Source: Synechococcus sp. BIOS-U3-1 | GTDB taxonomy: Bacteria; Cyanobacteriota; Cyanobacteriia; PCC-6307; Cyanobiaceae | DNA length: 64,000 bases | Direction of reading: 5' to 3' | Assembly: GCF_014279975.1 (NCBI RefSeq) | Contig: NZ_CP047936.1 | Coordinates: 434,001 to 498,000, forward strand | Shown: positions 3,810 through 32,563 of the stretch, piece by piece | How the letters are laid out: every line of letters begins with the position of its first letter | How positions within the stretch are numbered: position 1 is the first letter of the stretch | Made by a program: the position numbers and the translations under genes | The notes under the pieces: model-generated | What the model saw: only the letters and a program-made list of their open reading frames with translations | What the model was told of the DNA's origin: nothing | Databases searched by the model: none

Positions 3810-6800
3810 ATGACTCACCTCACCGGCTCCTCCTGGCCTTACAGCGATAGCGCTGCGCCCCAGGCGGTAGCTGGTGAAAGGGATGCCTGTGGCGTGGGAT
3901 TCCTGGCCCAAATGCAAGGGCATCGCAGCCATTGGGTGTTGCAGCAGGCCTTGCGTGGCCTCGGTTGCATGGAACATCGCGGTGGCTGCGGTGGTGACTC
4001 TGACTCCGGAGATGGTGCAGGTGTCTTGTGTGAAATCCCATGGACGTATCTCAGGGCGATCTGGCCAGAAGCCGCTGATGCCAAAGGGCTTGGAATGATG
4101 TTCCTACCCACAGACGCTGAACGTCGTCAGCAGGCTCGCCAATTTTTTGAAGCGGAAGCCGTTGCACTTGGTCTGCAGTTCTCCGGCTGGCGTGAGGTGC
4201 CTGTTGATTCGGCTGTGCTTGGGCCTATGGCCCGTGAAACTGCTCCTGTTATTGAGCAGTGGTTGGTCAATGGCGAGGCTGAAGGTGATGCCTTCGAGGC
4301 GTTGCTTCTACGACTCCGGCGGCGTGTTGGCGCTAGGGCCAGGGAATCGTGGGGGTTTGAAGGCTCACGTGATTTTTATGTGGCGTCCCTGAGCAGCCGA
4401 ACCGTCGTCTACAAGGGCATGGTGCGCTCGGAAGTGCTCGCCAAGTTTTATGCCGATCTGCGCGATTCCCGTTTTGAAGTGAGCTTCGCGGTGTACCACC
4501 GGCGCTTCAGCACCAACACGCTTCCCCGCTGGCCATTGGCCCAGCCGATGCGGCTCTTGGGTCACAACGGTGAGATCAATACTCTGCTGGGCAATCTCAA
4601 CTGGGCTAAGGCCTCTGAAGCCAGCCTCGCCGGAGTCTGGGGAGAAGCAGCGGACGACCTCAACCCCGTGGTGAATCCCGCTTTCAGTGATTCTGCCAAC
4701 CTCGACGCCACCCTTGAGCTGATGGTGCGCAGTGGTCGTTCCGTCACCGACAGCCTGATCACCCTTGTACCTGAAGCGTTCCGCAACCAGCCGGACCTTG
4801 ATAGCCGTCCTGATGTGACGGCCATGTATGAATTCAACGCTGGCATTCAGGAGCCCTGGGATGGCCCAGCTCTGTTGGTGTTTGCTGATGGCAAGCGTGT
4901 TGGGGCCACTCTGGATCGCAACGGTCTTCGTCCCGCTCGCTGGTGCTCTACGGAGGATGGTTTCGTGATTATGGGATCCGAGACCGGTGTGGTGGATCTC
5001 AGCGGCAAGACCGTGGTTCAAAAAGGTCGGCTCGGTCCTGGCCAGATGCTGGCGGTTGATCTGCAGACCGGCCAGCTGCTGGACAACTGGTTGGTTAAGG
5101 AAGACGCCGCCGGACGTTTCCCCTACGGCGATTGGCTGAAGCAGCACCGCCGCAATGTGCCTCCGCAATTTTGGACCCAGTCTCAGCAAGTCGGAGAACT
5201 CGACCTACTGAGACTGCAGACCGCTATGGGCTTCACGGCGGAGGATTTCGATCTGATCATCGGTGATATGGCCTCCCTAGGGAAGGAGCCCACCTTTTGC
5301 ATGGGTGATGACATCCCACTTGCGGTGCTCTCGGATAAGCCTCATCTGCTTTACGACTACTTCAAGCAGCGTTTCGCTCAGGTCACCAATCCGCCGATCG
5401 ATCCCCTCAGGGAACAACTGGTGATGAGTCTGGAAATGCATCTTGGCGAGCGTCGTCCGGCCTTGAAGCCTCAGGCGGAAGCCGCTTCGGTGATTCATCT
5501 CGATACTCCGGTTCTCAACGAGGCCGAGCTGGAAGAGATCAGCCAGCAAGGTCTTCCGGTTCAGTTCCTCTCCACCCAGGTGACAGTTGAATCCTGCACA
5601 GGTGGTTTCCGAACTGTTCTTGATGACTTGTGCCAGGCGGCTGAGCAAGCCGTGCAGGATGGTGCCCAGGTTCTGGTGCTCTCCGATCGCGTTAATTCCA
5701 ACGCTGAGCCCACATCACTGACGGCCACCACGGTGGCGATGCCGGCACTTCTCGCCGTTGGCTCTGTCCACCACCATCTGCTGCGACGCAAACTGCGACT
5801 GCGCTGCTCTCTTGTGGTGGACACCGCTCAGTGCTGGAGCACTCATCACATGGCCTGCCTCATCGGCTACGGCGCCAGTGCCGTTTGTCCATGGTTGACC
5901 TGGGAAACCACCCGCCATTGGCTCCAACATCCCAAAACGAGAAAGCGGATTGAGCAGGGAAAGCTTCCCGACCTCAGTGCTGATCAGGTTCAGGCCAATG
6001 TGCGTCTCTCTCTGGAGAACGGTCTTAGAAAAATTCTGTCCAAGATCGGCATTTCGTTGCTGGCCAGTTACCACGGTGCGCAGATCTTCGAAGCGATCGG
6101 GCTGGGTGCTGATGTGATCGAGACCGCTTTCAGTGGCACGACCAGTCGGGTTGCCGGCATGACCCTTGCGGAACTGGCGAACGAAACACTCTCGATGCAT
6201 GCCAAGGCTTTCCCCGAGCTGAACCGCAGCAAACTCGAGTTCATGGGGTTCGTTCAATACCGCAACGGTGCGGAGTATCACCGCAATAACCCAGAACTCT
6301 CCAAGGCTTTGCACAAGGCCCTGGCCCAGGGCCCCGGCTACGACCATTTCTCTACTTACAAGACCTTGCTTGAGAACCGTCCGGTGATGGCACTGCGTGA
6401 CTTGCTGGAGTTCAAGGTTGCGTCGTCGCCGTTGCCCCTCGATCAGGTGGAGAGTGTGGAAAGCATTTGCACCCGTTTCTGTACAGGTGGCATGAGCCTC
6501 GGAGCTCTCTCTCGTGAAGCGCACGAAGTTTTGGCTGTGGCCATGAATCGCATCGGTGGCAAGAGCAACAGCGGCGAGGGTGGTGAGGATCCCGCCCGCT
6601 TTCAGGTCCTCACCGATGTGGATGACGTCGGCCGGTCCGTCGCCTTCCCCAGCATCGGTGGGCTTCAGAACGGTGATACCGCCTGCTCAGCGATCAAACA
6701 GATTGCCTCAGGCCGCTTCGGCGTGACGGCTGAATACCTGAGGAGCGGTAAGCAGCTGGAAATCAAGGTGGCTCAGGGTGCCAAACCTGGAGAGGGAGGC

Positions 6801-8408
6801 CAGCTCCCCGGTCCGAAGGTCGACCAGTACATCGCCTGGCTTCGCAACAGCAAGCCCGGTGTTGCGTTGATTTCTCCGCCACCTCATCACGACATCTATT
6901 CCATTGAGGACTTAGCCCAGTTGATCCACGACCTGCACCAGGTGCATCCTTCAGCGCCGGTCAGCGTCAAACTGGTCGCAGAGATCGGTATTGGCACCAT
7001 CGCTGCCGGGGTGGCGAAGGCCAACGCGGACGTGATTCAGATTTCAGGCCACGACGGAGGCACGGGTGCTTCCCCGCTGAGTTCGATTAAGCATGCTGGT
7101 GGTCCCTGGGAATTGGGTCTCACTGAGGTGCATCGAGCTCTGCTCGAGAACGGCCTTCGCGACAGAGTTCTGCTGAGAGCCGATGGCGGTCTCAAGACCG
7201 GTTGGGATGTGGTGATCGCAGCTCTTCTCGGGGCTGAGGAATATGGCTTTGGTTCGATCGCCATGATCGCCGAAGGCTGCGTGATGGCGCGTGTTTGTCA
7301 TCTCAACAGCTGCCCGGTTGGAGTAGCAACACAGAAGGAGAACCTGCGTCAGCGCTTCACGGGAGTTCCCGAGCACGTCGTGAATTTTTTCTGGTATGTC
7401 GCCGAAGAGGTGCGTCAGTTGATGAGTTTGCTTGGTCTGGCGCGACTGGAAGATCTCATTGGCCGCAGTGACCTTCTCAAGCCCAGAGGTGTGTCTCTGG
7501 CCAAAACCAAGTGCGTTGATCTCTCCAGCCTGCTTGCACCGATCAGTGGTTCTGAAGATCGCTCATGGCTTACCCATAGTGCTGAAGCTCATGGCAATGG
7601 GCCCATTCTCGAAGACCAACTGCTGGCCGACTCCGAATTGATGGCTGCTATTGAAAGTCAGCAATCCATTCGTCGCACAGTGGAGATCATCAACACCGAC
7701 CGGAGCGTTTGTGCACGTCTCGCCGGTGAGATTGCCCAGCGCTATGGCAATCGTGGCTTTTTGGGTCAGCTGGAGCTCACCTTCCGCGGAGCTGCTGGTC
7801 AAAGCTTCGGGGCTTTTCTGGTTCAGGGCATGAATGTGCGTCTTGAAGGGGAAGCCAACGACTATGTCGGTAAGGGCATGAACAGTGGTCGTATCACGCT
7901 TGTGCCATCGGATTCCACCGCCAATCCCGGTGATCAGGTGATTCTTGGCAACACCTGTCTGTATGGAGCAACCGGTGGCGAGTTGTTCGCTCATGGGCGA
8001 GCCGGCGAGCGCTTTGGTGTACGCAATAGCGGTGCCCGCACGGTGGTTGAGGGCGCTGGCGACCATTGCTGTGAGTACATGACCGGAGGCGTTGTGGTGG
8101 TGCTCGGCAGCACTGGCCGCAACGTCGGTGCCGGGATGACCGGTGGCGTCACGTTCCTTTTGGATGAAGGTGATCGGGTGACTCCACGCGTGAATCCGGA
8201 GATCGTGGAGGTGTGCCCCATCACCACATCTGAGCAGGAGTCCACCCTTAAGGGTCTACTTGAACTGCATGTCGAGGCCACCGGCAGTGAGAAGGCGTTG
8301 GCGCTCCTTTCTGATTGGTCTGCGGCAAGAAGCCGTTTCAAGGTTCTGGTTCCACCCAGCGAACGAGCTGCAATGGGGCTTGCGGATAAACAGGCCGTTG
8401 CGGCCTGA
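3810..8408 (+). CDS. gltB: Glutamate synthase large subunit, probably ferredoxin-dependent
   Basis: Forms glutamate from glutamine and 2-oxoglutarate, the second half of the GS-GOGAT ammonium assimilation cycle. The protein has 1532 residues from ATG 3810. An in-frame TTG start at 3753 would add 19 residues not typical of the family. The amidotransferase nucleophile is Cys27 in GERDACGVGF after a short propeptide. A central FMN-binding synthase domain follows, with the 3Fe-4S cysteines C1157, C1163 and C1168. The C-terminal beta-helix domain has GxxGGxxxV-type repeats (TGGVVVVLG, GMTGGVTFL). No small NAD(P)H subunit (gltD) is adjacent, and cyanobacteria commonly use ferredoxin, so the Fd-dependent type (GlsF) is favoured by inference. 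Confidence 0.95.
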   Translation: MTHLTGSSWPYSDSAAPQAVAGERDACGVGFLAQMQGHRSHWVLQQALRGLGCMEHRGGCGGDSDSGDGAGVLCEIPWTYLRAIWPEAADAKGLGMMFLPTDAERRQQARQFFEAEAVALGLQFSGWREVPVDSAVLGPMARETAPVIEQWLVNGEAEGDAFEALLLRLRRRVGARARESWGFEGSRDFYVASLSSRTVVYKGMVRSEVLAKFYADLRDSRFEVSFAVYHRRFSTNTLPRWPLAQPMRLLGHNGEINTLLGNLNWAKASEASLAGVWGEAADDLNPVVNPAFSDSANLDATLELMVRSGRSVTDSLITLVPEAFRNQPDLDSRPDVTAMYEFNAGIQEPWDGPALLVFADGKRVGATLDRNGLRPARWCSTEDGFVIMGSETGVVDLSGKTVVQKGRLGPGQMLAVDLQTGQLLDNWLVKEDAAGRFPYGDWLKQHRRNVPPQFWTQSQQVGELDLLRLQTAMGFTAEDFDLIIGDMASLGKEPTFCMGDDIPLAVLSDKPHLLYDYFKQRFAQVTNPPIDPLREQLVMSLEMHLGERRPALKPQAEAASVIHLDTPVLNEAELEEISQQGLPVQFLSTQVTVESCTGGFRTVLDDLCQAAEQAVQDGAQVLVLSDRVNSNAEPTSLTATTVAMPALLAVGSVHHHLLRRKLRLRCSLVVDTAQCWSTHHMACLIGYGASAVCPWLTWETTRHWLQHPKTRKRIEQGKLPDLSADQVQANVRLSLENGLRKILSKIGISLLASYHGAQIFEAIGLGADVIETAFSGTTSRVAGMTLAELANETLSMHAKAFPELNRSKLEFMGFVQYRNGAEYHRNNPELSKALHKALAQGPGYDHFSTYKTLLENRPVMALRDLLEFKVASSPLPLDQVESVESICTRFCTGGMSLGALSREAHEVLAVAMNRIGGKSNSGEGGEDPARFQVLTDVDDVGRSVAFPSIGGLQNGDTACSAIKQIASGRFGVTAEYLRSGKQLEIKVAQGAKPGEGGQLPGPKVDQYIAWLRNSKPGVALISPPPHHDIYSIEDLAQLIHDLHQVHPSAPVSVKLVAEIGIGTIAAGVAKANADVIQISGHDGGTGASPLSSIKHAGGPWELGLTEVHRALLENGLRDRVLLRADGGLKTGWDVVIAALLGAEEYGFGSIAMIAEGCVMARVCHLNSCPVGVATQKENLRQRFTGVPEHVVNFFWYVAEEVRQLMSLLGLARLEDLIGRSDLLKPRGVSLAKTKCVDLSSLLAPISGSEDRSWLTHSAEAHGNGPILEDQLLADSELMAAIESQQSIRRTVEIINTDRSVCARLAGEIAQRYGNRGFLGQLELTFRGAAGQSFGAFLVQGMNVRLEGEANDYVGKGMNSGRITLVPSDSTANPGDQVILGNTCLYGATGGELFAHGRAGERFGVRNSGARTVVEGAGDHCCEYMTGGVVVVLGSTGRNVGAGMTGGVTFLLDEGDRVTPRVNPEIVEVCPITTSEQESTLKGLLELHVEATGSEKALALLSDWSAARSRFKVLVPPSERAAMGLADKQAVAA

Positions 8409-11609: not shown

Positions 11610-13008
11610 CCTCGTTCACCAGCTCCCTTGCTGATCCTCCCAGGCTGCTGGTGATCCGCAGCTTCTCTGGCTCGACGGCCGGTTCAGTCTTCCGGATATT
11701 GCGTTCGGGAACAGCCTTCTCGGCTTTGCTGGTCTCCAGAGACTTTTCTGTGTCAGCCGCTGCCGGATCAGTGACCCTTAGCAGTTCATCATCAGCTTCA
11801 ATCTCTGGAGTTGAGGAGTCGATCAGCCCCTGGCTCGGATTATCCATCGAGTTGGCAGCGCCGACTGCTTCTGAATCCATGGTTTGTTCTTCGGTGGTTT
11901 GTTCGTCCATGGTTTGTGTCTCAAGCGTTTGTGTCTCAAGGGTTTGTCCCACTGGTGTGTGGATCTCTGTTGAGGCCTCTGCTTGTTCAGACTTTTCAGG
12001 TTCAGAAGCAGGCTCGGGTTCAGTTTGCTGCGATGTCGCTTCTCTCTCAGATGCCTGCTCTGGTTCGGGAATGGCTTCGCCAAGCAGGCGCGCCATCTGT
12101 TCATCGTTCAGCCTTGACTGCATCCAGATCGGACGGCCGCCGGGACGCGTAGAGGTGGCTCGCAGCTGATTGTTGAAGACTGGAGTGATCGGATCACCAA
12201 GGCCATCAAGTAGCTCCATTTGCACGCTGCCATTTCCGTTCCCTGGGGTTTTCAGCCAAAGGGCCTCCTGGCGATCCACAAGGAAACTGTCGCCATTCAC
12301 GCTGATTCTCAGCCTCCAGCTGCCATCTCCCTCGCGCAGGTTCTGCAACGGTGCGTTCCAGATCAGCCAGTCGATCAGTAGAGGATCTCCGTTGTTGAGG
12401 TCGGAGGGGCTGACCACCGCAAGCCAGGGAGCATCCTGATCAGGCTGCGTTCCTGAAAGCTGTTGTAAGAGATCCAGCCGCCACTGAAGGCTGGCGCCCT
12501 TTGATTTCACGGCTTCACCCCAGGGCAAGGCGGCATAGGCGGTGAAGCGATGGCTCCCTGGGCTGAGATCGGGAAGCATGATCTGGAGTCGATCGTTGTC
12601 GGCGTGGCCGAAACGCAGCGGCGGACCGTCGTCGATCTGCAGGACTACATGAGCACCAAGGCCCAGCTCAGGATCCTCAGCCATTGGCCAATCCTCGATC
12701 CGCAATGAGAGTTCCACTTCACCGCTTTTCAGCAAATTGCCATCGGAGGGTCTGATCAGTTCAAGGCGGGGCGTATGGCTGCTCAAGGCTGCCTTGAATT
12801 GCTGTACAGCGCCCGGTGGACTGACTTCCTGCAGCCGACCTGATGGCGGCGTGACACTGACAATTTCAGTGGAGTGGTCTTGATTCCCTGAGCCTGATCC
12901 TTCCCAGGGCCAGGCCTGCGCGGCTGAGGCGGGAAGCACCAAGATCAACAAGGCAAGCAGAACCTGCAGCCAGTCATGGAGGTGGTGCGTCCGGCCTGAT
13001 GCCGCCAT
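11593..13008 (-). CDS. Exported hypothetical protein with pentapeptide repeat tract
   Basis: A 471-residue protein of unknown function. Residues 13-32 form a signal-peptide-like hydrophobic stretch (WLQVLLALLILVLPASAAQA) with an AQA cleavage site, so export is likely. Residues of about 80-300 form beta-rich Ig-like or FHA-like segments (LELIRPSDGNLLKSGEVELSLRIEDW, LSPGSHRFTAYAALP). After about residue 310 the protein becomes low-complexity and rich in Glu, Ser and Thr, including five QTxxx pentapeptides. It precedes cobJ with a 17-nt overlap, which suggests cotranscription but not necessarily shared function. The long divergent gap to psaA lies upstream. Confidence 0.72.
   Translation of the reverse strand: MAASGRTHHLHDWLQVLLALLILVLPASAAQAWPWEGSGSGNQDHSTEIVSVTPPSGRLQEVSPPGAVQQFKAALSSHTPRLELIRPSDGNLLKSGEVELSLRIEDWPMAEDPELGLGAHVVLQIDDGPPLRFGHADNDRLQIMLPDLSPGSHRFTAYAALPWGEAVKSKGASLQWRLDLLQQLSGTQPDQDAPWLAVVSPSDLNNGDPLLIDWLIWNAPLQNLREGDGSWRLRISVNGDSFLVDRQEALWLKTPGNGNGSVQMELLDGLGDPITPVFNNQLRATSTRPGGRPIWMQSRLNDEQMARLLGEAIPEPEQASEREATSQQTEPEPASEPEKSEQAEASTEIHTPVGQTLETQTLETQTMDEQTTEEQTMDSEAVGAANSMDNPSQGLIDSSTPEIEADDELLRVTDPAAADTEKSLETSKAEKAVPERNIRKTEPAVEPEKLRITSSLGGSARELVNEDGTQR
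11881..11951 (-). repeat. Tandem 15-bp repeats, about five units, inside the exported protein gene
   Basis: Five consecutive units of 15 bp share GGTTTGT at the left end on the plus strand, starting at 11881, 11896, 11911, 11926 and 11941. Two central units are nearly identical (GGTTTGTGTCTCAAG and CGTTTGTGTCTCAAG). They encode QTLET, QTLET, QTMDE, QTTEE and QTMDS pentapeptides. The array keeps frame, so copy-number change would lengthen or shorten the acidic linker without breaking the gene. Confidence 0.85.
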
Positions 13009-25686: not shown

Positions 25687-26427
25687 TCAGGGCAGCGTGC
25701 TGCCGTCATGGCAGCGCATGACCCGACCAGCACCCCGTAATTCAGTTCTGTAGTGATTGGCCACAGGATGAAGATCCTGGGGGTTCAGGCTGTCGATGCC
25801 GATGCCATTGCGGCCGTGTTCAATGCCCGAGCTGTGCATGTAGTGACCGTTCTCGAGATGGATGCCGACATGGGTGCAGCGCTCAGGGCTGCCGAAGAAG
25901 ATCAGATCGCCAGCGCGTAATCCAGACACATCCTCCGGTTGCACCGCCAGCGGCTGGCAGAACCTTTCCTGCTGATAGGCATCTCTGGGCAACCAGATGC
26001 CAGTGCTGGCGAAGGCTGTTTGCACAAGGCCGGAGCAGTCCAGATCGGGCCCGATGGTGCCTCCCCAGAGGTAGGTGTTCTTGAGCTCGGCAGCAGCTTT
26101 CAGCCATTTCAGAACCGCATTCAGCCGGCCGGTGATGTCCGAACTTGACAGCAGACACGGCTGCCGGGCTTCACAGGCCACAGCCTGACCGGCTAGCTCA
26201 TCCATGGAGAGCCAACAGGGGTAGCCGTCCTCGAGAAGCACAACGTGCAAACGACCTCTATCTTCCGGGCGTAAAGATGCGGCGACTTTGAAGACTCGAC
26301 CCGCTGCGGCTTGAGTGGCGAGTCCGTTCTCCGTTGGCCTGGCGTAGCCGTTCTGTCCTCTCAGCAGTTTCCAGCAGCCTCCTGAGCTGATCAGGTCCGG
26401 AGCGATCGGGGTGCCTAGGGTCGGCAT
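25687..26427 (-). CDS. NlpC/P60 family cell-wall endopeptidase
   Basis: A 246-residue protein from ATG 26427; a longer frame upstream has no protein character. An N-terminal bacterial SH3-like part, to about residue 90, precedes the NlpC/P60 domain. Cys131 in GPDLDCSGL is the nucleophile, His186 in CTHVGIHL the base, and HYMHSSG supplies the third polar residue. This layout matches cyanobacterial gamma-D-glutamyl-diamino acid endopeptidases that trim peptidoglycan peptides. No signal peptide was seen, so recycling inside the cell is possible. Its start codon is 17 nt from that of the divergent serine hydrolase. Confidence 0.92.
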   Translation of the reverse strand: MPTLGTPIAPDLISSGGCWKLLRGQNGYARPTENGLATQAAAGRVFKVAASLRPEDRGRLHVVLLEDGYPCWLSMDELAGQAVACEARQPCLLSSSDITGRLNAVLKWLKAAAELKNTYLWGGTIGPDLDCSGLVQTAFASTGIWLPRDAYQQERFCQPLAVQPEDVSGLRAGDLIFFGSPERCTHVGIHLENGHYMHSSGIEHGRNGIGIDSLNPQDLHPVANHYRTELRGAGRVMRCHDGSTLP

Positions 26428-26444
26428 TGCCAGTAGCCAGTGCC

Positions 26445-27341
26445 ATGGCGTTCTACCGTCCCGAGCCGGCGATGCAGCAGCAGCTGGTTGCTCTGCTCGA
26501 CAGGCTGGCGGCCGACGGCCGTCCCGGTTTGCATGATCAGGTGGCTGTGACTTGGGTGCGTTACGACACCGCATCTCCGACCAATGGAAGCGGCAGTGGC
26601 GCAGCCTGGTCTGACCAGAAACTGCTCTACCCCGCGAGTGTGGTGAAGTTGTTCTACGCGGTGGCTGCCGAGCACTGGCTGCAGCGCGATCTGATTCCAG
26701 ACAGCGATGAACTTCGCCGTGCACTGCTCGACATGCTGGCTGATTCCAGCAACGATGCCACTGGATTGATCATGGATCTGCTCACAGGCACAACGAGTGG
26801 TCCAGCGTTGCGTTCCCCTGCATGGGAGCAGTGGCAACGGCAACGACGCCTCGTGAATGACTGGTTTCATGGTTTTGGCTGGCCTGAGTTGGAGCTCATC
26901 AACTGCTGCCAGAAAACCTGGGGAGATGGTCCCTATGGACGGGAGCGGGTGTTTTACGGGGAGAACAACAACAATCGCAATGCCCTCTGTACGGCCGCTG
27001 TCGCCAGGGTTCTCGAAGCGGTCATGACCGATGGCGTGCTTTCACCTCCGGCTTGTCAGAGACTTCGAGCCCGATTGGCTCGCTCACTCGGCAAATCAGA
27101 CAGGCTGAATGATCCAGAGAACCAAGTGGATGGGTTCCTTGGTGAGGGTTTACCTGAGGGCATTCAGCTCTGGAGTAAAGCCGGATGGATGAGTCAGGCC
27201 CGCCACGACGCAGCCTGGTGGAGCATCGATGGAGAGGCGCCCTGCATGCTGGTGGTCTTCAGCGAAGGCAAGGAGCGCGCCGGCGATGAACAACTGCTTC
27301 CTCTGATTGCGACGCAGCTCGCGGCTTACGGAGTCGATTAA
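26445..27341 (+). CDS. Serine hydrolase, class A beta-lactamase-like
   Basis: A 298-residue protein from ATG 26445; a TTG at 26427 would overlap the divergent gene. The catalytic SxxK motif is Ser65-Val-Val-Lys68 in YPASVVKLF. SSNDAT near residue 105 corresponds to the SDN motif, and WSKAGW near residue 245 to KTG with Thr replaced by Ala. Penicillin-binding or beta-lactamase-like activity is plausible but not certain. No signal peptide was seen. It is the last chromosomal gene before the tRNA-Ser island: its stop is 20 nt from the duplicated tRNA end. Confidence 0.85.
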   Translation: MAFYRPEPAMQQQLVALLDRLAADGRPGLHDQVAVTWVRYDTASPTNGSGSGAAWSDQKLLYPASVVKLFYAVAAEHWLQRDLIPDSDELRRALLDMLADSSNDATGLIMDLLTGTTSGPALRSPAWEQWQRQRRLVNDWFHGFGWPELELINCCQKTWGDGPYGRERVFYGENNNNRNALCTAAVARVLEAVMTDGVLSPPACQRLRARLARSLGKSDRLNDPENQVDGFLGEGLPEGIQLWSKAGWMSQARHDAAWWSIDGEAPCMLVVFSEGKERAGDEQLLPLIATQLAAYGVD

Positions 27342-27361: not shown

Positions 27362-27379
27362 CGGAGAGGGAGGGATTCG
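27362..27379 (+). repeat. Left attachment repeat (copy of tRNA-Ser 3' end)
   Basis: CGGAGAGGGAGGGATTCG is identical in sequence and orientation to 32475-32492. With one mismatch the match extends three bases further left (20 of 21). It lies 20 nt after the serine hydrolase stop. It would be the original chromosomal 3' end of the tRNA gene, displaced by integration. Confidence 0.85.
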
Positions 27380-27446
27380 GCGTGTTTTCACAGGCCAGTC
27401 GTAGAGAGACCAGGGAGTTTTCTGCATTCTCAGAAAAAGAATACCC

Positions 27447-27467
27447 ACAACACATTTTCTGTGTTGT
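27447..27467. other. Hairpin ACAACACA/TGTGTTGT
   Basis: An 8-bp perfect stem encloses the loop TTTTC. No T tract follows on the plus strand, so it is a weak terminator candidate. It lies 68 nt inside the left attachment repeat, where it could also be a recombination accessory site. Confidence 0.4.
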
Positions 27468-27478
27468 CCTGGGAATAG

Positions 27479-27986
27479 ATGATAACTACTGCGTTTGAGA
27501 GGTATAGGGTGCCCCAGATGTGGGAACAAGTGGAGTCGGGCAACCTGAAGCCCCCCTCCTTTAACCGCCGCATTAGTGCGGTGAGCGCTTTTACTGATGG
27601 GCGTCGAAACTTACGAGATCAGCATTGTCAGGAGTGCCGCGGAACCCAATCCCCCAAAGAACAGGAATGGCGGCACCAAATCTGGCCCAACCGCTGGCTG
27701 AGTCTGATCTGACATCATTCCCGGGTCTAATCAGGGCCGCGAAGGTAAAGGGGGCAGCCATCGCAGCGCGTCACTACGTGATGTTCCGCGGGTCTTATTT
27801 GCTCTGTTGCCGTGTGTTCGAGCTGTGCCGCCTCCGCAGGGAAGCCATCGAGCCGCTAGACGGCGGTGGCAAAGTTCGGCGGCTGGGCAAGGGCAGCAAC
27901 CCCGCAACATACGTTTTAGTTCTGCGACGCTGGAGCTGTTCGAGTCGTTGGGCTGCGGGGAGCTTGGGGACTGGCTTTTCCCAAAT
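27479..27986 (+). pseudogene. Tyrosine recombinase (integrase) remnant, frameshifted and truncated
   Basis: Recognisable integrase sequence is split over three frames. Frame 2 (27479-about 27650) has SFNRRISAVSAF, like the core-binding domain. Frame 1 (about 27670-27900) has the catalytic-domain start: RHYVMFRGSYLLCCRVFEL with the box-I Arg, then REAIEPLDGGGKVRRLGKGSN with the beta-hairpin Lys region. Frame 3 (about 27900-27986) continues PRNIRFSSATLELFESLG and GDWLFPN. The second shift fits loss of one base near 27898-27903. The HxxR and Tyr boxes are missing, so the protein cannot be active. It reads away from the left attachment repeat. Confidence 0.8.
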
Positions 27987-28069
27987 CTCACTACGTTCTT
28001 GTCGATCCTGGTGAGAGTTCATCTCTCAAATTGGGTTGATTTACATCTGAGGCAAGGCTTGTCATGACT

Positions 28070-28656
28070 GTTTCAATACTGAGTCGGGACTCTTGAGGAG
28101 TCCTGGGGCTAGAAGGCCCTTATTGATCTCAGGTTTTTCTGGATAACATGATGGCCAAACGTATCGCTTGTATCTCCGCTGCCTCTGGGTTCCAAAGCAG
28201 CTAAAGGACTTCGGAGGTGTCCCCAAAAACATATCCCTTGTATTCGGTTAGGCATAAAAATTGCCCTAGATTCGGAAATTAGCTGGAACGACTCCTCCAT
28301 TTATTGTTCCGTTTTGATGTTTTTTGGGGACATCGATATTGCCAAGTAAAAAATATGTATTGCTTCCCGTCATGTTTCATGTGGTGCCTGCTGATTCAAC
28401 GCTAGGGCTTTGTATCGGAGTGCATTCGCCAATGACAAAGTTAATCTTAGATCGCCGATATTCATCATTATTTAGTCTCATATGAGCCAGCCAGGGCATG
28501 GTTGCTTTCATTTAATTGGGGAAGATCTGCAGGTATGCCTTCTTCTTGGCGTATAGCTCCTCATTGCTGAATCCTAGTTGAGAGCTTTGCTTGCTAGTCA
28601 CTCTTAGTCTTGGACTTGACGCCAGCTTGGTGTGGTTTCTGAGGTATACCCTGGCC
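28070..28656. other. Island non-coding stretch with hairpins and a 12-bp inverted repeat
   Basis: No convincing gene on the plus strand. A short hairpin GGACTC/GAGTCC is at 28087-28103. TGTCCCCAAAAA at 28218-28229 is the exact inverse complement of 28321-28332, with 91 nt between. Composition shifts from GC-rich near the integrase remnant to AT-rich toward the cargo genes, as in decayed mobile DNA. Confidence 0.5.
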
Positions 28657-28709
28657 TTGCTTTTGCTGCTTTCGTGGGAATATGATAAAGTAATAATAAT
28701 TTTCATCAA
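28512..28709 (-). CDS. Doubtful small ORF
   Basis: A 65-codon frame on the minus strand with a Lys/Ser-rich middle and the C-terminus LGFSNEELYAKKKAYLQIFPN split around a plausible helix. The ending looks protein-like, but no family is recognised and the ORF covers the likely promoter of the sulfatase-fold gene. It may be a fragment of a decayed gene. Confidence 0.22.
   Translation of the reverse strand: MMKIIITLSYSHESSKSKARVYLRNHTKLASSPRLRVTSKQSSQLGFSNEELYAKKKAYLQIFPN
28657..28686 (+). promoter_or_regulatory. Candidate sigma-70-type promoter of the island cargo operon
   Basis: TTGCTT at 28657-28662 and TATGAT at 28681-28686 are separated by 18 nt. Transcription would start near 28693, about 23 nt before the GTG start of the sulfatase-fold gene. 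The two following genes are 45 nt apart, so one promoter could serve both. Confidence 0.45.
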
Positions 28710-28715
28710 CCGGAA

Positions 28716-30599
28716 GTGCTATTTTTTTCTAAATTATTGCTTAAATCAATCGCTACTGCGATTGCAATATATGATTCATACGAGCAAACAGTCTTAAATC
28801 GATATCCAACTATTTTCAGGGCTTTGCCGAGAAAGCTGCTGTCTAAAGTAGGCTACTTTTCTAATACTGGCTCATTAATTGTTGACGGAAAATCAATTAA
28901 TTATACGGTTAAAAATAATGGCAATTTTGAAGCCTTTAAAGTGTGGTCTATATCTACAAGCTTGGAAATTTATCCGGGGGAAAGATTTTGCTACGCAGTA
29001 GTTCCGAAAAACAGTATTTACAAGCAGCTTTTTTACTTATCTTGTTATTTTAATGCACTTATTAATCTTAAGAAAAAATCTCAAGACATATTTAATACAG
29101 CCTTTTATTTTCGAGAATCTTTAGATACCGTAAATAGTGCGTTATTAATGCTGCGAGACCAACGCCAAAATACTTCAGAGGTATCATTCGCTAAGGCTTT
29201 TCAGGGCAGAATTCAGCACCAAGAAAATTGCGTAGATGAAGTAATTCAACTTAAATATAAAGATTGTGTCATTTTGAGGTCGGAAATTGGATTATATAAA
29301 AATAACAAAGCAAATCAACTGTCCAAAGGCAATAAATCAAAAAAACCAAAGAGAATCTTTGTAGTTTATTTGGATAATATATCTTATGAAACTTGCTTAA
29401 AGCCTCTGCTGTATTCAGATCAGTTAATTCTTAGAAACCCTATTGCAGATTTATTCTCCAAGTATAAGATCACCGCCTCAAAATTTACATCCACAAGTAA
29501 CTGGACTTTTCCCGCTGCTGTATCGATGTTTTCAATGCAACCATATTGGGTGCATAAAATTTATCATCCAGGCTTTCGTGGACATCATCCTATTAACTCA
29601 CTGATCAGTCGCTCAAAAGAAAATAATAACTACCTTAAAGAGATTTTGCAAGAATACAACTCTTTTATTTCAGGGAGAAATTGGAGGATGAATACGCACC
29701 ATGGTTTAAATAACATTTTTGCTCATAGTATTACTGCTGACTCGAATGAGATTGATATTTATGATGTTGTATCACAATCGTTAAAGCAAATTGATATTGC
29801 TGGCCAGTCATCGTCAATTCATTGGGTTAACATTATGGATACTCATCATCCCATGAATAGTTCGGTTTTGCCTTTGGGTGCGACAAAGTATTTGAGTTCA
29901 ACTAGCTTAATGAATTCCGGGCTTTCGTATGATACTGGGCCGAAGGTTAATTGTTCATCAGAAAAAAAATCAGCATTTTCAATCTATCAAGCGCAAATTG
30001 CATCAGCAGCGAATGCGGTGGATTTAATTTTACAGTCTAGTCTTAAATATATTCCAATAGAGGAGCATTTGATTATGTTTGTCAGTGATCATGGCTCTAA
30101 TTTTCCAGAGACTGAAGACCAGTATGCTTCTCTATTCGAGAAGCATACGCCACTTTTCGCTATTTCTTCTAATTATTTAGATGCAAATATTGAGTGCAAG
30201 GACGCCTCTTTTGCTGAACAGAGATTTGCACATTTCTCTTTGTTCAGCTGTATTCATAAGCTTGCAGGATTTAGTGATGCTTCGTTGCATCATTCATGCT
30301 ATTCAGAAAATCTTTCAAAAATTTCAATTATTTTTTATCCAGGCAAGCCTTTTGAATTTATTTATTTTGATGACGAGGCAAATGCTATATACAGATATGT
30401 TTCGAAGTTGACCGCTCCTGTAAATTCGAAAGTTGATTCTCGGTTTTCTTTATTTTGGTTGGAGCTTAAGGAGCATGTTGCCGTACATAATGGATGGAGT
30501 GTTATTCGTAAAAATGCAGATAGTGCTGATCTGATTTCAGTTGATAATCTCCCTTCAGATGTGCTTTTCTCTTTCGAGGAAATTTTTTCAATGAAATAG
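28716..30599 (+). CDS. Sulfatase / alkaline-phosphatase-superfamily enzyme, island cargo
   Basis: A 627-residue protein from GTG 28716; the start is not certain. Residues 1-20 are hydrophobic and might be an anchor. The C-terminal two thirds follow the sulfatase fold. VVYLDNISYETC (Asp220) is the first metal-binding strand, SNWTFPAAVSMFSM places the nucleophile at about Thr264, WVNIMDTHHPM has Asp375 and His377-His378, and LIMFVSDHG has Asp458-His459. The nucleophile position is Thr rather than the Cys of true sulfatases, so a phosphotransferase or phosphohydrolase (LTA-synthase-like) is more likely. Strongly AT-rich compared with the flanking chromosome, which indicates transfer. The pyruvate-kinase-like gene follows after 45 nt. 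Confidence 0.72.
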   Translation: MLFFSKLLLKSIATAIAIYDSYEQTVLNRYPTIFRALPRKLLSKVGYFSNTGSLIVDGKSINYTVKNNGNFEAFKVWSISTSLEIYPGERFCYAVVPKNSIYKQLFYLSCYFNALINLKKKSQDIFNTAFYFRESLDTVNSALLMLRDQRQNTSEVSFAKAFQGRIQHQENCVDEVIQLKYKDCVILRSEIGLYKNNKANQLSKGNKSKKPKRIFVVYLDNISYETCLKPLLYSDQLILRNPIADLFSKYKITASKFTSTSNWTFPAAVSMFSMQPYWVHKIYHPGFRGHHPINSLISRSKENNNYLKEILQEYNSFISGRNWRMNTHHGLNNIFAHSITADSNEIDIYDVVSQSLKQIDIAGQSSSIHWVNIMDTHHPMNSSVLPLGATKYLSSTSLMNSGLSYDTGPKVNCSSEKKSAFSIYQAQIASAANAVDLILQSSLKYIPIEEHLIMFVSDHGSNFPETEDQYASLFEKHTPLFAISSNYLDANIECKDASFAEQRFAHFSLFSCIHKLAGFSDASLHHSCYSENLSKISIIFYPGKPFEFIYFDDEANAIYRYVSKLTAPVNSKVDSRFSLFWLELKEHVAVHNGWSVIRKNADSADLISVDNLPSDVLFSFEEIFSMK

Positions 30600-30644
30600 T
30601 ATCTTGCTCGTGCATGCTAATCTTTCATTAGTCTTTTAATCCAC

Positions 30645-31712
30645 ATGGTTTGCAAGATTGTTGTAACTGTTGGCCCTGGGTCTCTTAGTGCTGAATCGCT
30701 AAGAGGAATGGTTGAGGCTGGTGCAGAAGATTTCAGGATTAATCTTTCACACTCTGACTCAACGTCTTTGGCCAAATATTATGATATTCTGCTCGATAAT
30801 AATATTTTACCTTGTATAGATACCCAGGGAGCTCAGCTCCGATTGATTGGTTTCCGTATCTCTACTCCTGTTTTACAGATCGGGACCATTTTGTCTGTAT
30901 TCTTTGGTCAGCATGTTCCTGAGCATTTTCAAGGAGATTTTTTATTAGTTAATCATCCAGAAGTTGTTTCTCAAATTTCTGCTGGCGACATACTAAAAGT
31001 TGACTTTGGTGGTCTTGCTCTAAGGGTTTGCCACCAGACAGATGGCTTAGCTTTCAATATGGAAGTTGTTGCATCTGGAAAGATTCTATTGAATAGAGCT
31101 ATTGATGTATCTGGTAAAGATTTGAAGATGAATTGTTTGACTCTATTTGATAGAAAGGCTATTCAATATTCAATTTCTCGGGGTTGCAAGAAAATCTATG
31201 CTTCCTTTATTTCTTCTGCAGAAGATGTTTTAGAGGTTAGATCTTTGGTCCCTGGGGATATTCCAATTGTTTCAAAGATAGAGACAAGGCTGGCACTTGC
31301 AAATTTGCACGATGTACTGGAGGTCTCGGACGCTATTCTCGTCGACAGAGGCGATTTGAGCCGAAGCATTACTATTCCAATGGTGCCTATGGCAGTTAAC
31401 AATGTATTGAAAGTAGCCTCAGCCTTCCAAAAGCCTGTCTACATAGCAACTAATATCCTTGATAGCATGATGGATTCGCCTGTTCCTTCGCGCGCTGAGA
31501 TATCGGACTTGTTTAATCTGCTGGAAAGAGGTGTTAGTGGAATTGTGTTAGCTGCCGAAGCTGCAATTGGGAAACATCCAGTACCGTCAGTTGCGTTAAC
31601 TAAATACATAATAGACATTTATAAGCTTCAAAAAGACGGATTGCTTGGATTGGCTGAGCTCCCCTTGCCGGCTCCTTCTTTGGTCGGTAATGAGCTGTAT
31701 CAATGGCTTTGA
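30645..31712 (+). CDS. Truncated pyruvate-kinase-like protein, island cargo
   Basis: A 355-residue protein clearly related to the barrel of pyruvate kinase. It has KIVVTVGPGS at residues 4-13, FRINLSH with Arg31 and Asn33, VSKIET with the catalytic-type Lys211 and metal ligand Glu213, DRGDLS with Asp237, and YIATNILDSMMDSPVPSRAE with Thr269. The usual DTKGPEIR is changed to DTQGAQLR, and the C-terminal allosteric domain is absent; normal enzymes have about 470 or more residues. A B-domain-like segment remains at about residues 70-160. It is not a housekeeping pyruvate kinase by length or context. Pairing with a surface-type sulfatase-fold enzyme suggests a PEP- or pyruvate-related modification, which is only an inference. 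Confidence 0.8.
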   Translation: MVCKIVVTVGPGSLSAESLRGMVEAGAEDFRINLSHSDSTSLAKYYDILLDNNILPCIDTQGAQLRLIGFRISTPVLQIGTILSVFFGQHVPEHFQGDFLLVNHPEVVSQISAGDILKVDFGGLALRVCHQTDGLAFNMEVVASGKILLNRAIDVSGKDLKMNCLTLFDRKAIQYSISRGCKKIYASFISSAEDVLEVRSLVPGDIPIVSKIETRLALANLHDVLEVSDAILVDRGDLSRSITIPMVPMAVNNVLKVASAFQKPVYIATNILDSMMDSPVPSRAEISDLFNLLERGVSGIVLAAEAAIGKHPVPSVALTKYIIDIYKLQKDGLLGLAELPLPAPSLVGNELYQWL

Positions 31713-31961
31713 ATTGATTCGCCTGAAAGTTCACTTTGCTCGCACAACTTGCGATTTGAGAAGATTTGTTGTAATGCTGATCTCGCTGTTAAGTGACTAA
31801 TGCTGGTTTTATCCATTATATTCATTGTTTATTTGCATTTGTATCGTTCATTGAAATCGGAATTTGTATATTCACGATTTAGTTGAGCGCTGCAATTGCT
31901 GTATTTGCATAAGTCCAGCTGATTTGGTTCGCAGGCGCAAATGTTTCAGCCGCTTCGGAAC
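31713..31961. other. AT-rich spacer after the cargo operon
   Basis: About 250 bp with no gene, repeat or strong terminator seen. The base composition is like the cargo genes. Confidence 0.5.
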
Positions 31962-32315
31962 CTAGCAGACATTAAGTACATAGGTTCTGTCGCCATATGC
32001 ATAGACCTCCTCAACACGGATACGCCTCCTAGTGGCGTTGCCTGACTTGTCGACGTAATTGATCAGGAGATAATCCTTGATCAGGAGCTTCTCACAGAGG
32101 AGAGTGCGCTACATCCTCCTGCACTGCATCGATCTCTGTTCCTTGGGGGCAACCTTTGCCTCTTCCAACCCAAGTGCCTTACTGAGTCAGACCCACTTGT
32201 ACGTGGAGGCAACTCCTGCCTTCCTCTCGGGTTGAGGTGCCTTAAGGCTCAGCTCACCTATGACCCGCCCCTTGAGCTTGGCATCTGCCTTCAGTCCCTT
32301 CAGTTCCTGTTCGGA
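31962..32315 (-). pseudogene. Reading frame with two internal stop codons, WYL-like C-terminus
   Basis: A single minus-strand frame of 118 codons reads as protein but is interrupted by TGA at 32187-32189 and TAG at 32109-32111. Its segments include EQELKGLKADAKLKGR near the start, LSKALGLEEAKVAPKEQRSM in the middle, and INYVDKSGNATRRRIRVEEV with GDRTYVLNVC at the end. The last part resembles the WYL ligand-sensing fold (YxDxxGxxTxRxI...YxxxxC) found in regulators of mobile and defence regions. The family call is tentative. It lies between the cargo genes and the tRNA. Confidence 0.5.
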
Positions 32316-32418
32316 GGGGGGGGATCTCAAGGAATTAATAAACCCCTTGTATCCCACAACATCGAATCGACGCGTTGTTCGAATTTGCAGGAATTTCTAG
32401 GATTTAAATTTAAAGGAT

Positions 32419-32451
32419 CCATTGCGTCACAGTTGGTTTGGGACGCAATGG
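32419..32451 (-). terminator. Hairpin downstream of tRNA-Ser, inside the island
   Basis: CCATTGCGTC at 32419-32428 pairs perfectly with GACGCAATGG at 32442-32451; the loop is 13 nt. On the minus strand it follows the tRNA 3' end by 24 nt and is followed by ATCCTTTAAATTTAAA. It can terminate tRNA-Ser transcription, replacing the terminator that was displaced by integration. Confidence 0.5.
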
Positions 32452-32474
32452 GGAGGTTAGAAACCACCTTGAAG

Positions 32475-32492
32475 CGGAGAGGGAGGGATTCG
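32475..32492 (+). repeat. Right attachment repeat, inside tRNA-Ser
   Basis: Identical 18 bp to 27362-27379. It covers the 3' half of the T loop and stem, the acceptor 3' strand and the discriminator base of tRNA-Ser. This is the usual crossover segment of tRNA-targeting tyrosine recombinases. Confidence 0.85.
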
Positions 32493-32563
32493 AACCCTCG
32501 ACAGAAGTTGCCTCCTGTAACTCCTTAGCAGGGAGCCGCTTTCAACCACTCAGCCACCTCTCC
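32475..32563 (-). tRNA. tRNA-Ser (anticodon GCT)
   Basis: An 89-nt class II tRNA on the minus strand. The acceptor strands GGAGAGG and CCTCTCC pair with discriminator G. The anticodon stem CTCCC/GGGAG type encloses a loop with anticodon GCT. The long variable arm is GTTACAGGAGGCAACTTCTGT-like, as expected for tRNA-Ser, and the T arm is GGGTTCGAATCCC. CCA is not encoded. The 3' end faces the island and serves as its attachment site, while the tRNA itself remains intact. Confidence 0.96.

Follow-up and report, generated by a model that had tools for sequence, protein, structure and literature searches.

A decayed genomic island at a tRNA-Ser gene of Synechococcus sp. BIOS-U3-1 with two open cargo genes, one of them for a short pyruvate-kinase-like protein

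Between a gene for a beta-lactamase-fold serine hydrolase and the gene for tRNA-Ser(GCT), the genome of Synechococcus sp. BIOS-U3-1 (one contig of 2.71 Mb) carries a 5.1-kb segment that we interpret as a decayed genomic island inserted in a tRNA gene (tDNA). We analysed this segment within a 64-kb window, positions 434001-498000 of the contig, and number positions from the start of that window. A preliminary description of this DNA had reported that the last 18 bp of tRNA-Ser(GCT) are repeated exactly, and in the same orientation, at the far side of the segment, and the repeat is indeed there: the 18-mer CGGAGAGGGAGGGATTCG has two exact copies on the plus strand of the 64-kb window and no copy on the other strand, whereas a given 18-mer is expected by chance (by simple arithmetic) at ~1e-6 copies per strand in 64 kb. 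The tRNA gene itself lies on the minus strand, with limits of 32474-32563 by ARAGORN and 32475-32563 by Rfam, so the right copy of the repeat is the 3' end of tRNA-Ser(GCT). From left to right, the segment holds a broken integrase gene, two cargo open reading frames (ORFs) that lie on the same strand, 45 bp apart, and are both open, and a fragment of a further gene; the remnants on either side of the cargo carry stops (Table 1).

The preliminary description further predicted that a chromosome without the segment would join the hydrolase gene directly to the tRNA, and proposed to look for such empty sites in relatives. We compared 31 genomes of the genus, that of the window included. The serine hydrolase was matched in 29 of them (again counting its own genome), giving 28 other orthologous loci, and in 15 of these 28 the tRNA begins 5-21 bp past the hydrolase stop, that is, the site is empty. 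Each of the five genomes whose hydrolases are most similar (84-91% identity) has an empty site of 20-21 bp, and there the tRNA end directly abuts sequence homologous to that left of position 27362. By contrast, the sequence left of 32475, on the element side of the tRNA, has no counterpart at the empty sites of these five genomes. A left flank that is homologous to empty sites, together with a right flank that is not, is the signature of integration into a tRNA gene with regeneration of that gene: the incoming element recombines with the 3' end of the tRNA gene, which is then restored by the element's own copy. Nor is the cargo found at the same place in all relatives, the outcome named beforehand as fatal to an insertion, since its alkaline-phosphatase-superfamily (AP-superfamily) gene occurs in only one of the 31 genus genomes, its own. 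A second copy of the 18-bp core is absent in eight stretches from seven genomes; the stretch from G015, the one locus of the 28 in which no tRNA appears before the contig end, has no copy at all. Repeat, regenerated tRNA and empty sites thus bear out the description of the segment as a tRNA-bounded genomic island.

Table 1. Features of the island and of its borders (positions within the 64-kb window)
Feature	Position	Strand	Evidence
Beta-lactamase-fold serine hydrolase (PF13354), flanking chromosomal gene	26427..27341	+	Pfam 4.9e-13
Left direct repeat, once the 3' end of tRNA-Ser and now displaced, 20 bp past the hydrolase stop	27362..27379		Exact match; left flank homologous to empty sites
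Tyrosine-integrase pseudogene, 5'-truncated, frameshifted, with ~190-bp internal deletion, C-terminal end recognisable	27397..28036	+	Comparison with intact genes
627-aa probable AP-superfamily (sulfatase-like) protein, intact	28716..30599	+	Open frame; weak profile matches; Prochlorococcus homolog
355-aa pyruvate-kinase-like protein, barrel region only, intact	30645..31712	+	PF00224 4.4e-54; short subfamily
Remnant of a 477-aa WYL-like gene	31974..32282	-	tblastn 50-51% identity, with stops
Right direct repeat, within the restored tRNA-Ser (its 3' end)	32475..32492		Exact 18-bp match
tRNA-Ser(GCT), target gene	32474..32563	-	ARAGORN; Rfam RF00005 62.9 bits, from 32475

The composition of the segment sets most of it apart from its surroundings. 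The sharp fall in GC content that had been predicted was seen, with values of 0.31-0.46 in 500-bp windows between 28.0 and 32.25 kb versus 0.54-0.64 in those of the flanks (22.0-27.5 and 32.25-38.0 kb). The cargo is AT-rich, as described beforehand: its two genes have a GC content of 0.35 and 0.41, and their GC content at third codon positions (GC3) is 0.30 and 0.34 compared to 0.60-0.65 in the four flanking genes computed. The earlier claim that everything between the repeats is unlike the chromosome holds for this cargo, but not for the integrase remnant (0.55) or the right remnant region (0.52), both of which are near-native in GC. Similarly, the stop-riddled reading frame that had been noted does exist, in the two remnants, but not in the two AT-rich cargo ORFs, which are intact. 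The island is decayed and mosaic. Scans for promoters and terminators returned no more sites than in shuffled sequence.

The recombinase at the left end had been called broken, and it is a truncated tyrosine-integrase pseudogene with five stops. Positions 27397-27912 correspond to residues 91-257 of an intact tyrosine integrase of 361 aa (L078), which itself has a phage integrase domain (PF00589, 3.8e-28). At the DNA level the remnant is 76-77% identical over 478 bases to two intact integrase genes, and intact homologs share 65-69% protein identity with it over 95-96 residues. Alignment with the two intact genes reveals a deletion of ~190 bp, followed by the C-terminal end SHYVLVDPGESSSLKLG and a stop, in frame 0, to ~28036. 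Of the 241 genomes compared from the taxonomic family of this strain, 24 have a match to this integrase family. Among the 16 integrase loci scoring at least 340 bits, the fetched stretch includes a two-piece transfer-messenger RNA (tmRNA) gene at 12 and no tmRNA or tRNA at the remaining four; the 14 other loci fetched (partial copies, with that of the window included) have no tmRNA and, in one case, tRNA-Val. The insertion may be the work of a relative of a tmRNA-type integrase; alternatively, the pseudogene is left over from a different event. The genome of the window has only two matches to the family, both with stops; a second degenerate integrase piece lies at G000:C1:1648791-1648987 (L002/L056), its DNA being 71% identical. 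The loci L121-L136 (in G012, G006, G253, G316 and other genomes) are likely a tmRNA-targeting island family of marine Synechococcus. The genes behind the integrase differ between G012 and G006, and a search of three stretches for direct repeats of these tmRNA elements gave nothing beyond one 12-base match.

At the right end, the remnant matches a 477-aa gene that is intact elsewhere in the same genome (at 554.7 kb) as well as in G017 and G009, and the DNA of the remnant matches these three places. We refer to this gene as WYL-like, its match to the WYL domain being weak (E=0.003, below cut-off). The intact gene (L085 9535-10968 in G000, L086 and L087) lies ~2.2 kb from tRNA-Phe in G000 and G017, and no tRNA was found in the G009 stretch that contains it. 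In G009 (L087), inspection by eye places the 477-aa gene near a putative integrase ORF (6604-8061) and a putative serine resolvase ORF (12219-12788), which recall the element described in PMC10187409.

The cargo, which the preliminary description had not recognised, can now be partly named as an AP-superfamily-like protein followed by a short pyruvate kinase (PK). The first of these, the 627-aa protein, probably belongs to the AP superfamily and is sulfatase-like. It has a weak match to DUF229 (9.4e-4, below cut-off), and its homolog in Prochlorococcus sp. AG-363-P19 (G459; 30% identity, E=6e-73 by BLASTP) likewise matches an arylsulfatase model weakly (4e-4). When a profile of four proteins (those of the window and G459 along with two 571-aa proteins of L052 and L053) was compared with solved structures, weak matches to sulfatases were obtained (best E=5e-4); the 627-aa sequence alone gave one chance match. 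The residues D220, T264, D458 and H459 are invariant in the four aligned proteins, T264 lying within SNWTxPAA. The likeness to sulfatases and other AP-superfamily enzymes (PF00884, DUF229) thus consists of the conserved D220, D458 and H459 and a Ser/Thr-rich nucleophile region, and the overall similarity is very weak. We take the region of T264 to correspond to the formylglycine motif of PF00884 sulfatases, in which the nucleophile is Cys or Ser; the cargo protein differs in having Thr at this presumed nucleophile position, which would make a phospho-type hydrolase or transferase more likely than a true sulfatase. It is a very rare gene, with one occurrence in 386 genomes of the phylum and two, by profile, in 400 genomes of the family. 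A scan of GTDB contigs returned a single locus, in Prochlorococcus sp. AG-363-P19, and it is in this single-cell genome that the cargo pair recurs, adjacent and in the same order. No relative was found in phage records.

The second cargo protein ends where the C-terminal domain of PK would start, and it misses the PK equivalog cut-off of NCBIfam (213.2 versus 306.4 bits). Using a profile of ten such proteins, we searched 400 genomes of the taxonomic family and found short PKs in 11 of them, with scores of 449-515 bits and frames of 354-383 aa. The next match is a housekeeping PK at 228 bits, and among the matches listed the housekeeping frames have at least 485 aa. The eleven short PKs separate fully from eleven long ones, with support of 1.0, in a midpoint-rooted tree with no outgroup beyond the family. 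On sequence grounds the short PKs are a discrete subfamily. R31, N33, S35, D59, R66, K211, E213, D237 and T269, which we take to be the catalytic residues of PK, are invariant in all 22 aligned proteins, 11 short and 11 long. The short PK shares with pyruvate kinase (PF00224; TIGR01064) the barrel with its phosphoryl-transfer residues, but it differs in having no C-terminal domain, in scoring below the equivalog cut-off and in 14 aligned positions that are fixed differently. These long-to-short changes include P63A, K64Q, A234D, V240R and Q270N, and one of the 14 positions is the last residue, which may be an alignment effect. We infer that the fixed changes would alter the acceptor pocket of the short PK.

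The signature of the short PKs (GAQ; DRGDL[ST]R; ATN) also occurs in an 88.8-kb IMG/VR contig, IMGVR_UViG_3300027779_001649 (L153 4004-4981), in which the gene adjoins an SbcC-like phage gene and has a kinase-like gene and a peptide deformylase gene nearby. A P-loop gene near this phage short PK, read by eye as an adenosine 5'-phosphosulfate (APS) kinase, was set aside, as Pfam assigns it to AAA_18 (E=0.0019) and PHROGs only to 'kinase'. PK-like stretches were found in 22 phage records, with 25-37% identity in the best 20 of the 22, and PK-like proteins in 151 plasmid records, with 32-34% identity in the 15 listed of the 151. In the literature searched, a set to which subscription papers mostly do not belong, we found no paper on the short PK family.

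The neighbourhoods of the short PKs offer a hint as to function. In the window and in L046, L052 and L053, an AP/sulfatase-like gene lies directly upstream of the short PK on the same strand. In L045, L047, L048, L050 and L051, a gene adjacent to the short PK matches sulfotransferase models, on the strand of the short PK in L047 and L050 but not in L045, L048 and L051. Sulfotransferase-like or sulfatase-like neighbours thus accompany nine of the 11 short PKs, five of them above curated cut-offs (L047, L048, L050, L051 and L053). Counting ORFs of at least 150 aa in the ten loci other than the window, 7 of 20 immediate neighbours match Sulfotransfer or Sulfatase models at 1e-3. As a control we took the 88 other ORFs of the same ten loci, and no sulfo family is among the 25 most frequent of their 137 families, those listed; since each listed family has at least three members, each sulfo family has at most three members in the control ORFs. 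In L053 (G486:C37) the sulfatase-like gene and the short PK come directly after genes for phosphoenolpyruvate (PEP) mutase, a thiamine pyrophosphate (TPP) enzyme and LicD, possibly a phosphonoglycan cluster. Judging from these gene contents, the setting of the short PKs is mostly surface-glycan islands, linked to sulfo- or phospho-groups. Islands of marine Synechococcus are described as rich in glycan genes (PMC2441476), and phosphonate cassettes are known from Prochlorococcus islands (PMC8931226; neither 'pyruvate kinase' nor 'sulfatase' occurs in the main text of that paper).

We propose that an element recombined with the 3' end of tRNA-Ser and then restored the tRNA gene with its own copy, and the island is now decayed, with the integrase a pseudogene, a second gene a fragment and two adjacent same-strand cargo genes still open. 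The two cargo genes may have been kept by selection and may act together. On surface glycans, the AP-superfamily enzyme would transfer or remove a phospho- or sulfo-group; the short PK-like enzyme would use PEP on an acceptor other than adenosine diphosphate (ADP), a division of labour that we put forward tentatively. A broader proposal, likewise speculative and in our view doubtful as a whole, is that the short PKs are a new family of PEP-dependent phosphotransferases derived from PK, which would act on an intermediate of sulfated or phospho/phosphono surface glycans together with a neighbouring sulfotransferase or AP-superfamily transferase, would have spread among picocyanobacteria by islands and phages, and in the window would form part of the sole surviving module of a dead tRNA island. 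For the overall reading, that of a decayed tDNA island at tRNA-Ser(GCT) with two open cargo genes that selection may have kept, we estimate a probability of roughly 0.8, the proposed function of the pair on glycans being by itself rather less likely than not. Its marks are a displaced fragment with a regenerated tRNA, an empty site, a foreign composition (with near-native ends) and an integrase gene, the last as a pseudogene only. We see the island in a single one of the 31 genus genomes; it belongs to an already known kind of element.

Several observations weigh against this reading. With 326-699 bp between the hydrolase and tRNA-Ser in 11 of the 28 relatives and ~2.8 kb in one more, G016, the locus is more varied than a choice between empty and filled. 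The integrase family is normally found at tmRNA and may not have made this insertion; its recognisable remnant begins 18 bp past the repeat, without its first part, so this end of the element is damaged; and the AT-rich cargo and the near-native ends may differ in history. As to the cargo, the matches behind the AP-superfamily assignment are weak, none exceeding a curated cut-off for the window protein. An hhalign comparison of the window/G459 pair with the L052/L053 pair gave a probability of 16% (E=0.0016), and a structure model of the 627-aa protein had a mean predicted local distance difference test (pLDDT) score of 28.8 and is worthless. For two of the 11 short PKs, those at L049 and L151, Pfam shows no sulfo-type gene alongside, and the function of the pair is a matter of inference.

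The difference between cargo and ends could point to a composite history, in which the AT-rich two-gene cassette reached the site only after an old tRNA-Ser element had decayed there, for example by homologous recombination with another picocyanobacterium, and was never carried by that element. The GC values of the two remnants and the cargo would fit such a history, as would the fact that the integrase and WYL-like remnants have their kin at different places (tmRNA and near tRNA-Phe, respectively); scans of nine of the ten further stretches with a short PK (12-18 kb each) gave no tRNA. However, islands that pick up cargo before moving are usually mosaic in composition too, and no second boundaries were noticed inside the element, although none were searched for systematically; a composite history is a possibility that we take seriously without favouring it. 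Much harder to defend is the idea of an ancestral cargo that the relatives have lost. It could draw on the longer gaps that 12 of the 28 relatives keep between hydrolase and tRNA, but the five closest relatives are empty, so repeated precise losses would be needed. Moreover, an ORF scan found no ORF >106 aa in the eleven gaps of 326-699 bp, and in G016 the ~2.8 kb between hydrolase and tRNA-Ser (L054 2135-4938) contain a different gene, encoding a HEAT-repeat protein, and no further copy of the repeat. We give ancestral cargo almost no credence. The eleven gaps (L017, L020, L022-L025, L027-L030 and L032) have a GC content of 0.36-0.59.

The preliminary description had likened the segment to a tycheposon, an element of 4-200 kb with a tRNA border and xerD (PMC10872708). 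Tycheposons use seven tRNAs. Its size of 5.1 kb, its tRNA-Ser border and its tyrosine recombinase remnant do fit that summary, but the kin of the recombinase, present in a tenth of the family genomes, lie mostly beside tmRNA, and a second type of picocyanobacterial integrase, found at tRNA-Phe/Cys and distinct from tycheposon integrases, has been described (PMC10187409), so that finding such a recombinase next to a tRNA does not prove a tycheposon. Islands in tDNA generally combine a tRNA with a repeat and a tyrosine recombinase, and the assignment is not supported: a small degenerate tycheposon in the strict sense is unlikely. More improbable still, in our view, is an origin of the segment from a prophage or phage satellite. 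Synechococcus RS9917 does have a relic prophage island with a tRNA-Ser border (PMC2784084), and one phage contig carries a short PK, yet no structural phage gene was recognised among the island ORFs, by eye and by Pfam on five of them. No relative turned up when viral contigs were scanned with the integrase, the predicted phage attachment site (attP), each of the two cargo proteins and the AP alignment, the PK alignment alone finding the one phage contig. Matches of plasmid DNA to the island (20 records) fall on the tRNA only.

The decayed tDNA island that we favour is ordinary in kind; what is worth following is the cargo that survives in it, and the short PK subfamily most of all. With sites that are empty in relatives, an integrase that is dead and cargo that is not, the locus is a clean example of what a host keeps once mobility is lost. 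Here the kept cargo is unusual: one gene encodes a barrel-only relative of PK in which changes near the active site are fixed, the other a probable AP-superfamily protein that is very rare. The short PK is a candidate enzyme that lends itself to direct testing. If the pair modifies surface glycans, it would bear on how marine cyanobacteria vary the surface met by phages and grazers.

Compared with known systems, the island shares with the tycheposons of Prochlorococcus, as summarised in PMC10872708, a tRNA border, a tyrosine recombinase, ecological cargo and a size within their range, and differs from them in that the kin of its recombinase are mostly at tmRNA. With the element described in PMC10187409 it has in common a tyrosine-type integrase, a tRNA and variable cargo in Prochlorococcus and Synechococcus, and the intact kin of its right remnant lie ~2.2 kb from tRNA-Phe in two genomes; its target, however, is tRNA-Ser(GCT) rather than tRNA-Phe/Cys, and its integrase kin are at tmRNA. 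The tDNA genomic islands catalogued in Islander (PMC4383910) have, like this one, a regenerated tRNA at one end, a displaced fragment at the other and a tyrosine integrase, whereas here the integrase is dead, the displaced fragment measures only 18 bp and the integrase remnant lies at the fragment end.

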